From Halorubrum lacusprofundi ATCC 49239 (lineage in GTDB: Archaea > Halobacteriota > Halobacteria > Halobacteriales > Haloferacaceae): 64,000 bases of DNA. Under the pieces are notes generated by a model. The model was given only the letters and a program-made list of their open reading frames with translations, was not told the origin of the DNA and made no database searches. This document shows positions 15,023 to 26,066 of the stretch, one piece after another. Position 1 is the stretch's first letter, and each line of letters starts with the position of its first letter. The DNA lies in assembly GCF_000022205.1 (NCBI RefSeq), contig NC_012029.1, forward strand, positions 1,674,001 to 1,738,000, read 5' to 3'. A program made the position numbers and the translations under genes.

Positions 15023-15301
15023 CTTATAAGTGGTTGCTGGCAGATCGACGACGAACATCGCCAAAACCCCAGCCGCGCTTGGCTACCCCTTTGAGTCCTA
15101 TCCCGCACAGCACCGCAACCGCACCTCACACCTCCCCAACCTCGTCGGTGATCCTCCGCTTCGCTCCGGACCACCGACTCCAGCGAGAATCGGAGATTCT
15201 CTGGCAGCCGGCGCTACGCGCCGGCGACCTCGCGCGGGCTGCTCGCGACCGTCGAGGGCGGCCGCTCGCAGGCACACGCCACCGCACGTCGTATTTATAA
15301 A
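15023..15301 (+). repeat. Structured intergenic repeat, copy A
   Basis: Full-length member of a four-copy family. CTTATAAG at 15023-15030 opens it and ATTTATAAA at 15293-15301 closes it. The conserved core is AACATCGCCAAAACCCCAGCC then CTTTGAGTCC and CACACCTCCCCAACCTCGTC at about 15053-15146. Hairpin 1 is short (AGCCG-CGCT-TGGCT from 15071). Hairpin 2 pairs GTCGGTG at 15144-15150 with CACCGAC at 15172-15178 around the loop TCCGCTTCGCTCC. Hairpin 3 (about 15230-15270) is imperfect. The right end is GGCACACGCCACCGCA. No ORF with local codon use fits. It fills the convergent gap between the cyclophilin and nucleoside-recognition genes. Confidence 0.85.
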
Positions 15302-17415: not shown

Positions 17416-17729
17416 ATTTATAAGCGGTCGATCGACACGAACACCACTAAAGCCCCAGCCGCGAGGTGGGCGCACGCTCGCTGCGGTCCTCACTCGGTCG
17501 CTCACTTCATTCGCTCCCTCGTTGCGGTCCTTGCTTCGCCTGCGCCCGCCTCGCGGCTGCCCCTTTGAGCCCCACCCCGCACCGCACAGCACCGCAGCCT
17601 CACACCTCCCCAGCCTCGTCGCTGGCACCCTCCGCTTCGCTCCGGGGGCCAGCGACTCCCTCGCGGCCTCCTCGCGGCCGCCCTCGGCGGCCGCTCGGAG
17701 GCGCGCCACCGCATTGTTCACTTATAAAC
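17416..17729 (+). repeat. Structured intergenic repeat, copy B
   Basis: ATTTATAAG at 17416-17424 opens the copy and CTTATAAAC at 17721-17729 closes it. Hairpin 1 is greatly extended: an 18-nt arm at 17457-17474 pairs with 17541-17558 with a single G-T position. Hairpin 2 pairs GTCGCTGGC (17618-17626) with GCCAGCGAC (17648-17656), keeping the loop TCCGCTTCGCTCC seen in copy A. Hairpin 3 is GCGGCCGCC-CTC-GGCGGCCGC at 17674-17694. The core CTTTGAGCCCCACCCCGCAC and right end GGAGGCGCGCCACCGCA are conserved. Lies between convergent genes. Confidence 0.88.
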
Positions 17730-22219: not shown

Positions 22220-22274
22220 GTCGCTTTCTTCGAGATCACTCGGGCCGGCGGAGTCGGTAGGTGTTGCCTGCTGT

Positions 22275-22569
22275 CGGCGCGCGCCTGTGAGCGAGCCGAA
22301 GGCTCGCGAACGGCACCGTGCGAGGGAGTCGGAGCGGCGCTTATAAGCGCCGCTCCGACGAGGCTGGGGGGGGGGGGCGTGAGGCTGCGGGGTGGTGTGG
22401 GGTGGGGTGGGATTCAAAGCCCCAGCCGGCGAGGACGAAGCTCGGCGCAGTAAGCACCGCAGCGAAGGAGTGTCAGCGACTGAGCGAGGCGCACAACAAG
22501 CCGCGCGAGTCGTCGCCGGCTGGAGATTTGGAGGTGTTCACCGCCGATCTGCTAACAGCCATTTATAAG
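22275..22569 (-). repeat. Structured intergenic repeat, copy C (reverse orientation)
   Basis: Read on the minus strand, CTTATAAAT at 22569-22561 opens the copy. GCGGTGAACACCTCCAAATC and CTCCAGCCGGCG follow, then an expanded hairpin 1 (22509-22525 pairs with 22420-22436, 15 of 17 positions). The core is GGCTTTGAATCCCACCCC, with a run of twelve C (G at 22366-22377 on the plus strand). Hairpin 2 is the perfect 32-bp palindrome at 22328-22359 with TTATAA at its centre. Hairpin 3 is GCGAGCC-TTC-GGCTCGC (22291-22307). The right end keeps AGGCGCGCGCC but lacks the closing TATA box. Confidence 0.82.
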
Positions 22570-23222: not shown

Positions 23223-23726
23223 CTACTCCCGATCGAGGTACTCCTGTTGGATCGCGACGACCTCGGCGGAGTCCTCGCAGGCGGCGTACCGCCGGAGCGG
23301 TTCCTCGTTGAGTTCGAGGAACGTCTCGCCCCACGTGAACTTCGCCATAATCCGTTCGGCGTGGTCAAGCTCGCCGAGGATCGCGAGCGCGGCCGCGAAC
23401 GCCTCGACGGTGGTGAGCTGCATCGGACGCCCGAAGTTCACGGGGTTGGCGGCGACGAGGTACGGGAGCGCGCGATGCTCGCCGGGGAGGCTGAACATCT
23501 TCTCGCCCGCTGACTCCCACGAGCAGTCGAGCGCGACGAGCGCGTTCTCGTTGGCGAGGTCGGCGTCGGCGGGTGACAGCGCGCGCTCGGCGTGGGGGTT
23601 GAGCACGATTCCGTAGGGCGTGTCGCGGTCGGAGCGGTGCAGTTCGGCGAGATCGAACCGCGCGAGCTTCCGGGCCGTACACTTGTCGGGGTCGTCGTCG
23701 CCCTCGTACCGAACGTGGAGGTCCAC
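23223..23726 (-). CDS. tsr3: Tsr3-type rRNA aminocarboxypropyltransferase
   Basis: 167 residues, matching the DUF367/Tsr3 family. It transfers the 3-amino-3-carboxypropyl group from SAM to a hypermodified uridine of small-subunit rRNA, acting in ribosome maturation. Visible motifs: [38 protein letters not shown] and the C-terminal [28 protein letters not shown]-like box at 23748-23756 (both-strand TATA) lies 25 bp before the ATG and probably drives leaderless transcription. Confidence 0.9.
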
Positions 23727-23807
23727 GAGTACGAGATTGGTGGGTTTGTTTATAAGCCGTGCGGAGCGTCAGGGGATGTCGGCAACGTTACGGGCGATCG
23801 GTGACAC

Positions 23808-24214
23808 GTGATCGACGACTCCGCGGTGAACACTCACAAAGCCCCAGCCGCGCTCGGCTGCCCCTTTGAGTCCCACCCCGACCGCACAGCACCGCAACCT
23901 CACACCTCCCCAACCTCGCCGCTCGCTCGGGGCTCTCTTCGGTCGCCCACATCGCTCGCGGCGTCCCTCGCGCGGCGCTCTCTTCGGTCGCCCACATCGC
24001 TCGCGGCGTCCCTCGCGCGGCGCTCTCTTCGGTCGCCCACATCGCTCGCGGCGTCCCTCGCGCGGCGCTCTCTTCGGTCGCCCACATCGCTCGCGGCGTC
24101 CCTCGCGCGGCGCTCTCTTCGGTCGCCCACATCGCTCGCGGCGTCCCTCGCGCGGCGCTCCTCGTGGCCTGTCGGCCACTCGGAGGCGCGCGCCACCGCA
24201 GTTCGGTTTATAAT
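23808..24214 (+). repeat. Structured intergenic repeat, copy D (with internal 45-bp expansion)
   Basis: Left part GATCGACGAC then GCGGTGAACACTCACAAAGC and the core CCCCAGCCG-CGCT-CGGCTG (hairpin 1), CCTTTGAGTCCCACCCCGAC and CACACCTCCCCAACCTCGCC. Hairpin 2 pairs CGCCGC (23917-23922) with GCGGCG (23958-23963). Hairpin 3 is GTGGCC-TGTC-GGCCAC at 24164-24179. The right end GGAGGCGCGCGCCACCGCA is followed by TTTATAAT at 24207-24214. It lies between the divergent genes tsr3 and cofE, the only copy not in a convergent gap. The long reading frames across it are repeat artefacts. Confidence 0.87.
23933..24157 (+). repeat. Five tandem 45-bp repeats inside copy D
   Basis: Five units starting at 23933, 23978, 24023, 24068 and 24113, each beginning CTCTCTTCGGTCGCCCACAT and ending GTCCCTCGCGCGGCG. 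They are identical as far as can be read. The unit corresponds to the loop and right arm of hairpin 2 of the repeat family. The length is a multiple of three, which keeps all frames open. Confidence 0.92.
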
Positions 24215-24324
24215 CGATCGTCGCCACAACTCGTGCCGAACCCACTTCCCACCCCCAAAACCTGATACCGTCAAACCGGCCCGGTACCGGCGGGGTTTTT
24301 CCTCGTCGCCACCCACCGGTTCGT

Positions 24325-25080
24325 ATGGAGCTGTTCGCCGTTCCGGGCCTCCCGGAGATCCGGGACGGAGACGATCTGGCGGCCATGATCGACGAGCGCG
24401 TCGACCTCCGCGAGGGCGACGTGGTCGTCGTCGCCAGCACGGTCGTCTCCAAGGCGGAGGGGCGGACCTTCGACCTCTCGGACTTCCCGGCGAGCGAGCG
24501 CGCGGAGGCGGTCGCCGACCGGCTCGCCGAAATCGCCGGCGAGGAGAAGGACCCGCGCTTCGCGCAGGCCGTCATCGAGGAGTCGACGGAGCTGATCATG
24601 GAGGCGCCGTTCCTCCTCACTGCGACCCGCTTCGGCCACATCGGCGTCAACGCCGGAATCGACCAGTCGAACGTCCCCGACGGCGACCTACTGCTGCTCC
24701 CGGAGCGCCCCTCCGAGAGCGCGGCGCGCATTCGCGAGGGGATCGCGGCCGACCGCGTCGTCGTCAGCGACACCTGCGGGCGCCCGTTCAGACACGGCCA
24801 GCGCGGGGTCGCGATCGGCTGGGCCGGGCTCCCGGCCAGCCGCGACTGGCGCGGCGAGCGCGACCGCGACGGCCGCGAGATGGGCGTCACCGTCCAGAAC
24901 GTGATCGACGAACTCGCGTCGGCCGCCAACCTCGTCGCCGGCGAGGGCGACGGCGGCACCCCGGTCGTCGTCGTCCGCGACTGGGAATTCGGCGACCACG
25001 ACGGCTCGGACAACCACTTCCGCGAGGTCGAGGGCGACTTCGTGCGGCAGGCCCTCCGGCAGTGGACATTCGACGACTAA
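24325..25080 (+). CDS. cofE: Coenzyme F420:L-glutamate ligase
   Basis: 251 residues. Adds glutamate residues to F420-0 using GTP. The family blocks are present: DGDDLAAMIDERVDLREGDVVVVASTVVSKAEG, TRFGHIGVNAGIDQSNV, VVVSDTCGRPFRHGQRGVAIGWAG and MGVTVQNVIDELASAANLV. Length is normal for the archaeal form. Two bases separate its stop from the ATG of mer, so the pair is an operon making and using F420. Repeat copy D lies directly upstream and may contain its promoter. Confidence 0.94.
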   Translation: MELFAVPGLPEIRDGDDLAAMIDERVDLREGDVVVVASTVVSKAEGRTFDLSDFPASERAEAVADRLAEIAGEEKDPRFAQAVIEESTELIMEAPFLLTATRFGHIGVNAGIDQSNVPDGDLLLLPERPSESAARIREGIAADRVVVSDTCGRPFRHGQRGVAIGWAGLPASRDWRGERDRDGREMGVTVQNVIDELASAANLVAGEGDGGTPVVVVRDWEFGDHDGSDNHFREVEGDFVRQALRQWTFDD

Positions 25081-25082
25081 CC

Positions 25083-26066
25083 ATGCTCGGTATCGAACTC
25101 ACCCCCGAACACGACCTGCACCGCCTCGTCGACCTCGGCGTCCGCGCCGAGGCAGCCGGCTACGACGCCGTCTACTCGACGTGTCACTACAACAACCGCG
25201 ACCCGTGGGCGTTCCTCTCGCAGCTGGCGACCGCCACGGACTCGGTCCGGCTTGGCCCGGGCGTCGCCAACCCCTACGAGACCCACCCGGTGACGCTCGC
25301 CTCGCGAGTCGCCACCCTCGACGAGCTGTCGGAGGGCCGCGCCGTCTTCGGGCTCGGCCCGGGCGACCCCTCGACGCTCCGGAACCTCGGGCTCGAAGAC
25401 GAGCGCGGGCTCCGCCCCGTCTTAGAGGCGTTCAAGACCGCCCAGAAGCTCTGGGCCGGCGAGCGCGTCGACCACGAGGGCACCTTCGACGCCGCGGGCG
25501 CCGGACTCAACTACGAGCCCCCGCAGGGCGCCGACATTCCGGTCCACGTCGGCGGCGAGGGCCCGCACATGTGCCGGATGGCCGCGAAACACGCCGACGG
25601 GCTGCTGTTCAACGGCTCGCATCCGAAGGACCTCGCGTGGGCTCGCGAGCAGGCCGACGACGGGCTTGCCGATCGACCTGACCATCGCGGCGACTTCGAT
25701 CTGATCGCCTACGCCGCGGTCTCGGTCGCCGAAGACGAGGCGGCGGCCCGCGAAGCCGCCCGCCCGCCGGTCGCGTTCATCGCCGGGGGCGCGGCGCCGC
25801 CCGTCTTGAAGCGTCACGGCATCGACCCGGCCGCCGCCAGCGAGGTCGGCGACCGCGTCTCGGCCGGCGAGTTCTCCGCGGCCTTCGAGCGCGTGACCCC
25901 CGAGATGATCGACGCGTTCTGCATGGCGGGCACCCCCGAGATCGTCCGCGAGCGCGCCGCCGCCGTCGCCGAGCACGCCGACGGCCTCGTGGTCGGGTCG
26001 CCGCTCGGCCCGGACCTGGAAGGCGCGGTCGACCTCGCGGCCGAGGCCGTCGACGGCCTCTTTTAA
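25083..26066 (+). CDS. mer: F420-dependent methylenetetrahydromethanopterin reductase-like enzyme
   Basis: 327 residues. Luciferase-like (LLM) fold with the start MLGIELTPEHDLHRLVDLG. Conserved blocks include YDAVYSTCHYNNRDPWAFLSQLATATDSVRLGPGVANPYETHPVTLASRVATLDELS and VHVGGEGPHMCRMAAKHADGLLFNGSHP (given in part). This is the Mer pattern, reducing methylene-H4MPT with F420H2. Haloarchaea are not methanogens, so the C1 carrier and physiological direction are uncertain. Adjacent cofE supports F420 use. Mch is at 38228. Confidence 0.85.
   Translation: MLGIELTPEHDLHRLVDLGVRAEAAGYDAVYSTCHYNNRDPWAFLSQLATATDSVRLGPGVANPYETHPVTLASRVATLDELSEGRAVFGLGPGDPSTLRNLGLEDERGLRPVLEAFKTAQKLWAGERVDHEGTFDAAGAGLNYEPPQGADIPVHVGGEGPHMCRMAAKHADGLLFNGSHPKDLAWAREQADDGLADRPDHRGDFDLIAYAAVSVAEDEAAAREAARPPVAFIAGGAAPPVLKRHGIDPAAASEVGDRVSAGEFSAAFERVTPEMIDAFCMAGTPEIVRERAAAVAEHADGLVVGSPLGPDLEGAVDLAAEAVDGLF

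Follow-up and report, generated by a model that had tools for sequence, protein, structure and literature searches.

Between tsr3 and cofE of Halorubrum lacusprofundi ACAM 34, five identical 45-bp units stand head to tail within one copy (copy D) of a dispersed intergenic hairpin element, and with good probability they represent a recent, probably neutral minisatellite expansion that arose by slippage or unequal exchange. The array lies in the window analysed here, a 64,000-nt stretch of chromosome 1 (1674001-1738000). Direct comparison shows that all five units are one and the same sequence, and the period of 45 is exact from 23932 to 24160 (229 bp, 5.09 periods). In parallel, Tandem Repeats Finder reports 23922-24160 with a period of 45, 5.3 copies, 98% match and a score of 464, far above every other of the 32 rows obtained for the 64-kb window. 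Besides this array, the 64 kb contain one exact array, with a 12-bp unit, when at least three periods and period lengths of 10-149 are considered. The period-45 array is not due to chance, and with a unit between 10 and 100 bp and at least two head-to-tail copies beyond chance it can be considered an ordinary minisatellite, hosted by a hairpin family that seems to be undescribed. Unit identity, exact periodicity and Tandem Repeats Finder thus bear out the five identical repeats reported in the first-pass annotation, and their assignment to an expansion within hairpin 2 of copy D of a repeat family is likewise supported. The features of the locus are collected in Table 1.

Table 1. Copy D and its neighbouring genes, in window coordinates
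Feature	Position	Strand	Basis
tsr3, DUF367 family protein (Tsr3-like)	23223..23726	-	NF002621 230 bits, cut-off 152
Element head (GATCGACGACTCCGCGGTGAACA...)	23810..23836	+	sequence
Hairpin 1, CAAAG-CCCC-AGCCG...CGGCT-GCCCC-TTTG	23837..23868	+	RNA fold -12.2 kcal/mol, z -2.41
Conserved C-rich linker AGTCCCACCCCGACCGCACAGCACCGCAACCTCACACCTCCCCAACCTC	23869..23917	+	sequence; linker core pattern counts
Hairpin 2, one-unit (ancestral) extent, base GCCGC/GCGGC	23918..23962	+	sequence comparison, arm pairing
Left imperfect direct repeat CTCGCTCGGGGCTC	23922..23935	+	left arm of hairpin 2
Five identical 45-bp units	23933..24157	+	sequence, Tandem Repeats Finder
Right imperfect direct repeat CTCGCGCGGCGCTC	24147..24160	+	hairpin 3 start; 12/14 identical to left
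Hairpin 3 and tail (GCGCGCGCCACCGCA)	24147..24200	+	RNA fold -31.6 kcal/mol, z -2.78
TTTATAA just past tail	24207..24213	.	TTATA/TATAA recurrent after tail in own-genome copies
cofE, coenzyme F420-0:L-glutamate ligase	24325..25080	+	TIGR01916 288 bits, cut-off 181

The element opens with a head that carries a TATA-like box and GGTGAACACC, after which come, in order, hairpin 1 (starting with CAAAGCCCCAGCCG and ending with CGGCTGCCCCTTTG), the C-rich linker, hairpin 2, TCCCTCGC, hairpin 3, the tail CGCGCCACCGCA and TTATAA. In copy D, hairpin 1 is present in a short form, its length being about 100 nt in most copies, the TATA usually found at -38 from CAAAG has decayed (ACACGTG), and the nearest TTTATAAG is located at 23749-23756, adjoining the tsr3 start. 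The 45-nt form of hairpin 2 is likewise found in many copies of other genomes. The unit had been described as the loop and right arm of hairpin 2; this holds for 30 of its nucleotides, whereas the other 15 of the 45 (GTCCCTCGCGCGGCG) lie downstream of hairpin 2 and consist of the spacer after it and the hairpin 3 start. The left arm is absent from the unit, and the base arm can pair with any unit, as previously proposed, since GCCGC at 23918-23922 finds GCGGC in every one of them.

Stop codons are absent from all six frames of the unit, whose peptide reading is SLRSPTSLAASLARR, a rotation of the peptide given earlier, and a 752-aa ORF (23808-26066) is open on the plus strand, as would be expected if the array coded for a repeat peptide. 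However, gene calling by codon usage predicts no gene at the array, and the 752-aa ORF overlaps cofE and just prolongs a mer-like gene (25083-26066) upstream in the same frame. A coding origin of the array was rejected on these grounds and is extremely improbable, the long ORFs with the repeat peptide being false, as the first-pass annotation had stated.

Tandem arrays are a classic site of assembly and cloning artefacts, by which the true number of units could differ from five, and a G+C-rich stretch troubled sequencing in another strain of the species, as mentioned in an excerpt of its report (PMC6011602). Against this, the H. lacusprofundi genome was finished from Sanger shotgun reads of 3 kb, 8 kb and fosmid clones at about 12x, with an error rate below 1 in 50,000 according to the excerpted genome report (PMC5018182), so that the unit count is likely right. 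Furthermore, the first unit is preceded by two diagnostic differences (23927 and 23931) and the last one runs into unique sequence. The length of a Sanger read suffices to span the 229-bp array. The assembly risk is small, and an artefactual unit number can be considered very unlikely.

The expansion may be traced to a one-unit ancestor with a pair of imperfect 14-bp direct repeats, of which the left one would have been located in the left arm of hairpin 2 and the right one, at a distance of 45 bp, at the hairpin 3 start. The first duplication would have come from unequal exchange or slipped-strand mispairing between these two repeats, probably assisted by polymerase stalling at the G+C-rich hairpins, and further slippage between two identical units may then have led to five. 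The breaks of the exact units fall at the edges of these repeats, CTCGCTCGGGGCTC and CTCGCGCGGCGCTC. Among 31 copies of the same hairpin-2 subtype, it is in the window copy that the two repeats match best at a distance of 45 bp (12/14, with 7-11 and mostly 9 in the others); for the ancestor we infer this figure, since homogenisation with the units may have altered the 14-mer on the right. In the same set, 28 copies have one unit, one has two and one was scored 0 because the motif was missed, the window copy alone having more than two. The exact junction between units occurs four times in the own genome and, at 0-1 mismatch, in none of 51 other Halorubrum genomes, where matches with 2-3 mismatches are mostly ordinary single hairpins 2, the remainder being hairpin 3 starts. 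Slippage seeded by the direct repeats thus represents the best account, since the window copy has both the best repeat match at 45 bp and the only array of more than two units, and the junction is absent elsewhere. The identity of the units, from which the recency of the expansion is deduced, is compatible with the very recent event that had been claimed, although repeated homogenisation would give the same look.

Tandem duplications are also present elsewhere in the family. Hairpin 2 is duplicated as 63 bp x2 in one genome (G008) and as 72 bp x2 in another (G046), both duplications containing N and thus possibly being assembly joins. In addition, head modules form arrays with units of 51-57 bp and up to six copies: on chromosome 1 (about 466.2 kb; L017, 1109-1367) the head module is repeated 4.8 times with a 54-bp unit and 96% match, and further arrays of 51-57 bp occur in L030, L052, L114, L121 and, with 6.1 copies, in L147.

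The pairing of the hairpin arms was compared with that obtained by shuffling right arms among copies. In a sample of 111 elements, from which copies without clear anchors were left out, hairpin 2 has at least five consecutive base-arm pairs in 90/106 copies (2000 shuffles: mean 26.9, maximum 39), and hairpin 1 at least six consecutive arm pairs in 61/88 (shuffles: mean 29.4, maximum 41). In a separate count the outer arms of hairpin 3 are paired in 34/80, a number that the shuffles also reach (mean 26.9, maximum 34). Counts of this kind are inflated by related copies, as the shuffling takes no account of relatedness. Nine different left arms of hairpin 2 were found, including GCCGC, GTCGC, GTCGG, GCGGT and GCGGC, and at the tsr3-cofE locus alternative hairpin 2 helices (GCCGC/GCGGC, GCGGC/GCCGC and GTCGN/NCGAC) are present in different species. 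Judged by these sequence comparisons, hairpins 1 and 2 keep pairing while their arms change, which identifies a structure-conserving repeat.

These paired and changing helices (90/106 copies and nine left arms for hairpin 2), together with the GCGGC partner offered by each unit, would suit a different explanation, namely that the extra units are functional and selected in number, making a structured spacer, or an RNA, that lies between tsr3 and cofE longer or stronger. The folding data argue against it: as RNA, the stability of the unit alone does not exceed that of shuffled sequence (z +0.36), nor is the whole element, array included, more stable than shuffles, be it as DNA (z -0.79) or as RNA (z +0.21), and these values give no support to the earlier suggestion that the expansion enlarges a structural element. 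Hairpin 2 with a single unit is slightly better than shuffled (RNA z -0.87). Moreover, at the orthologous locus ten other species have the element without the array and 19 are devoid of the element. A function of the extra units is unlikely, and neutral expansion by slippage is the preferred explanation.

Additional features of the hairpins emerged from the same comparisons. A wobble test for the RNA strand gave 5 G.T versus 18 A.C mismatches and was set aside because too few of these are independent events, six A.C cases being one recurring position. At one stem position of hairpin 1 (index 18) a C.C mismatch is found in 27 of the hairpins counted. Short perfect palindromes (e.g., GCCGGCGGCAAAGCCGCCGGC and GAGGGACCTTCGGTCCCTC) are nested in hairpins 1-3 of many own-genome copies of the element (L017, L034, L038 and L041 among them), looking like hairpins inserted into hairpins. 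In 3 of 86 hairpins 1, one arm has been altered towards complementarity with its partner (CCCC to GGGG), making the palindrome perfect or nearly so; such arm-to-arm conversion would possibly reflect template switching at hairpins. Three further copies in the window (15062-15300, 17448-17727 and, on the minus strand, 22268-22530) are probably copies A-C of the first-pass annotation, and the minus-strand copy at 22.4 kb has a hairpin 1 arm rewritten to GGGG with a nearly perfect palindrome.

The element belongs to a dispersed intergenic repeat family. With up to two mismatches, the core TGCCCCTTTGAGTCCC has 56 matches in the own genome (control, 2), 55 of which are on chromosome 1 and the remaining one, with two mismatches, on contig C1 (contigs C1 and C3 being chromosome 2 and plasmid), and the linker core pattern has 69 (control, 0). 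None of the 38 placed copies overlaps a gene called by codon usage. The 37 copies with both neighbours called comprise 15 in convergent, 18 in tandem and 4 in divergent gaps, copy D being among the last, compared with 6, 9 and 14, respectively, for the intergenic gaps of at least 100 bp in the window. By BLAST, the part from head to hairpin 2 is found in 52/52 Halorubrum genomes. Within the order, the core pattern with up to one mismatch is present in 41 of 293 genomes, including 19/19 of Halorubrum with 6-185 matches each and 22/274 of other genera with at most 4; for the linker the corresponding figures are 52/293, 19/19 (17-195 matches) and 33/274, the top count outside Halorubrum being 104 in a genus (g35) of family f17. 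Most of 20 loci from outside Halorubrum share the linker, followed by a hairpin 2 of variable sequence, TCCCTCGCGCG, a likewise variable hairpin 3 and GCGCGCC, two of the 20 (L208 and L209) resembling chance matches. Genera of haloarchaea besides Halorubrum also have this linker-hairpin 2-hairpin 3 core in abundance. Instead of CAAAG/CTTTG, hairpin 1 carries GAAAG/CTTTC in family f4 and elsewhere, so that the outer pair is changed on both sides, and in f4 genomes (L181-L184) two hairpin-1/AGTCCC units were seen opposed as a large inverted repeat. Carriage on plasmids or by viruses was rejected: out of 72,556 plasmid records two have a match, one being a plasmid of Halorubrum salinarum and the other, with the linker-hairpin 2-hairpin 3 core, a plasmid of Halorussus caseinilyticus, and two exact core patterns gave no match in viral contigs. 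The best full-length similarity to the query copy within one copy-rich genome is 88% among the 40 of 389 candidates scored, and thus the element looks old, with no recent burst seen.

Comparison with known systems places the array and its host in different classes. As in the minisatellites and VNTRs of prokaryotes, identical units of tens of bases, with short direct repeats as their seeds, stand head to tail in a single strain; here, however, the array is surrounded not by a gene but by a dispersed hairpin element, and one genome per species was compared. Bacterial REP/BIME and ERIC sequences are dispersed intergenic palindromic repeats. The element resembles them in its approximately 55-70 intergenic copies, its G+C-rich imperfect palindromes and its genus-wide presence, but differs in having three hairpins and a conserved C-rich linker, wholesale helix change and, at each end, a TATA-like box with fixed spacing. 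No element head, core, linker or tail was found at the 8 loci read among the 9 Y1_Tnp places of the genome, and mobilisation of the IS200/IS605 type, or of REP with RAYT, was rejected on this basis. MITEs are reportedly present in haloarchaea such as Haloquadratum walsbyi, and like them the element is short, non-coding and dispersed in a haloarchaeon; unlike them, it has no sign of target-site duplication beyond the shared TTATAA and no recent burst. Indeed, in 35 copies the left and right TATA flanks match at 3.63 of 8 positions versus 3.40 in shuffles (p 0.12), and an assignment to MITEs by target-site duplication was discarded. By eye, the element ends resemble direct, not inverted, sequences bearing TTATAA. 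The 51-57 bp head arrays can be compared, by description, with the class I intergenic repeats of halovirus HF2, which according to an excerpt of the source are 58 bp long and carry promoters (PMC8707807); TATA-bearing, intergenic and of similar length, these repeats are nonetheless viral, and no hairpin 1-2-3 body is reported for them in that excerpt. In Rfam, the sole match for 23700-24350 is outside the element and below threshold (16.5 bits, gathering 37). A search of the open-access literature by text and by four core sequences, with most subscription papers outside its scope, returned no description of the family.

The TATA-like boxes raise the question of transcription. TTATA/TATAA is present upstream in 40 of 49 own-genome copies, mostly 38 nt before CAAAG; past the tail, 23 of 38 have it within 45 nt, the distance being 6-9 nt in 21 cases, against a background of 0.7% of 45-nt flank windows. 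In HF2 promoters the TATA box begins at -26 from the start, as given in the excerpted report (PMC8707807), and the same spacing would put the first base of a transcript some 12 nt ahead of hairpin 1. It is conceivable that the element is a transcribed structured RNA, although copy D itself has a decayed TATA. More broadly, and rather doubtfully, the array might mark an undescribed, haloarchaea-wide structured family in which whole helices are exchanged or rewritten with their pairing retained, the C-rich internal loop and the C-rich linker are kept, and in which the TATA of the head is placed for a start about 12 bases before hairpin 1; its tens to nearly 200 copies per genome would act as transcribed RNA or as protein-bound DNA hairpins, and tandem expansion would be a by-product of folding. 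By itself, the expansion has little import beyond a possible use as a strain marker of H. lacusprofundi. The host family is more important, being present in every searched Halorubrum, with its core in other haloarchaeal families and with helices that change and remain paired. Transcription would make it a very numerous haloarchaeal structured RNA; otherwise it is a large archaeal family of DNA hairpin repeats. Its tandem duplications and arm conversions provide naturally occurring cases of archaeal mutation driven by hairpins.

The occurrence of the element at the tsr3-cofE locus is patchy. Of 41 rows, 11 in which tsr3 is missing were left out; in the remaining 30 cofE loci, with adjacent tsr3, the element is present in 11 (one truncated) and absent in 19, a locus with only a tail-like remnant being scored as element-free. 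On a cofE tree built from 40 of 58 fetched loci, 18 having been dropped because they were named for other genera or came from more distant MAGs, the presence of the element requires at least 8 changes, and thus the pattern fits neither plain descent nor one insertion event. The 45-bp array is absent from the element copies of the ten other species at this locus. In element-free species (L047, L048, L056 and others) the gap has a different, similar-sized content, seemingly a small minus-strand ORF, and the two kinds of gap alternate among sister species, as if recombination had swapped them.
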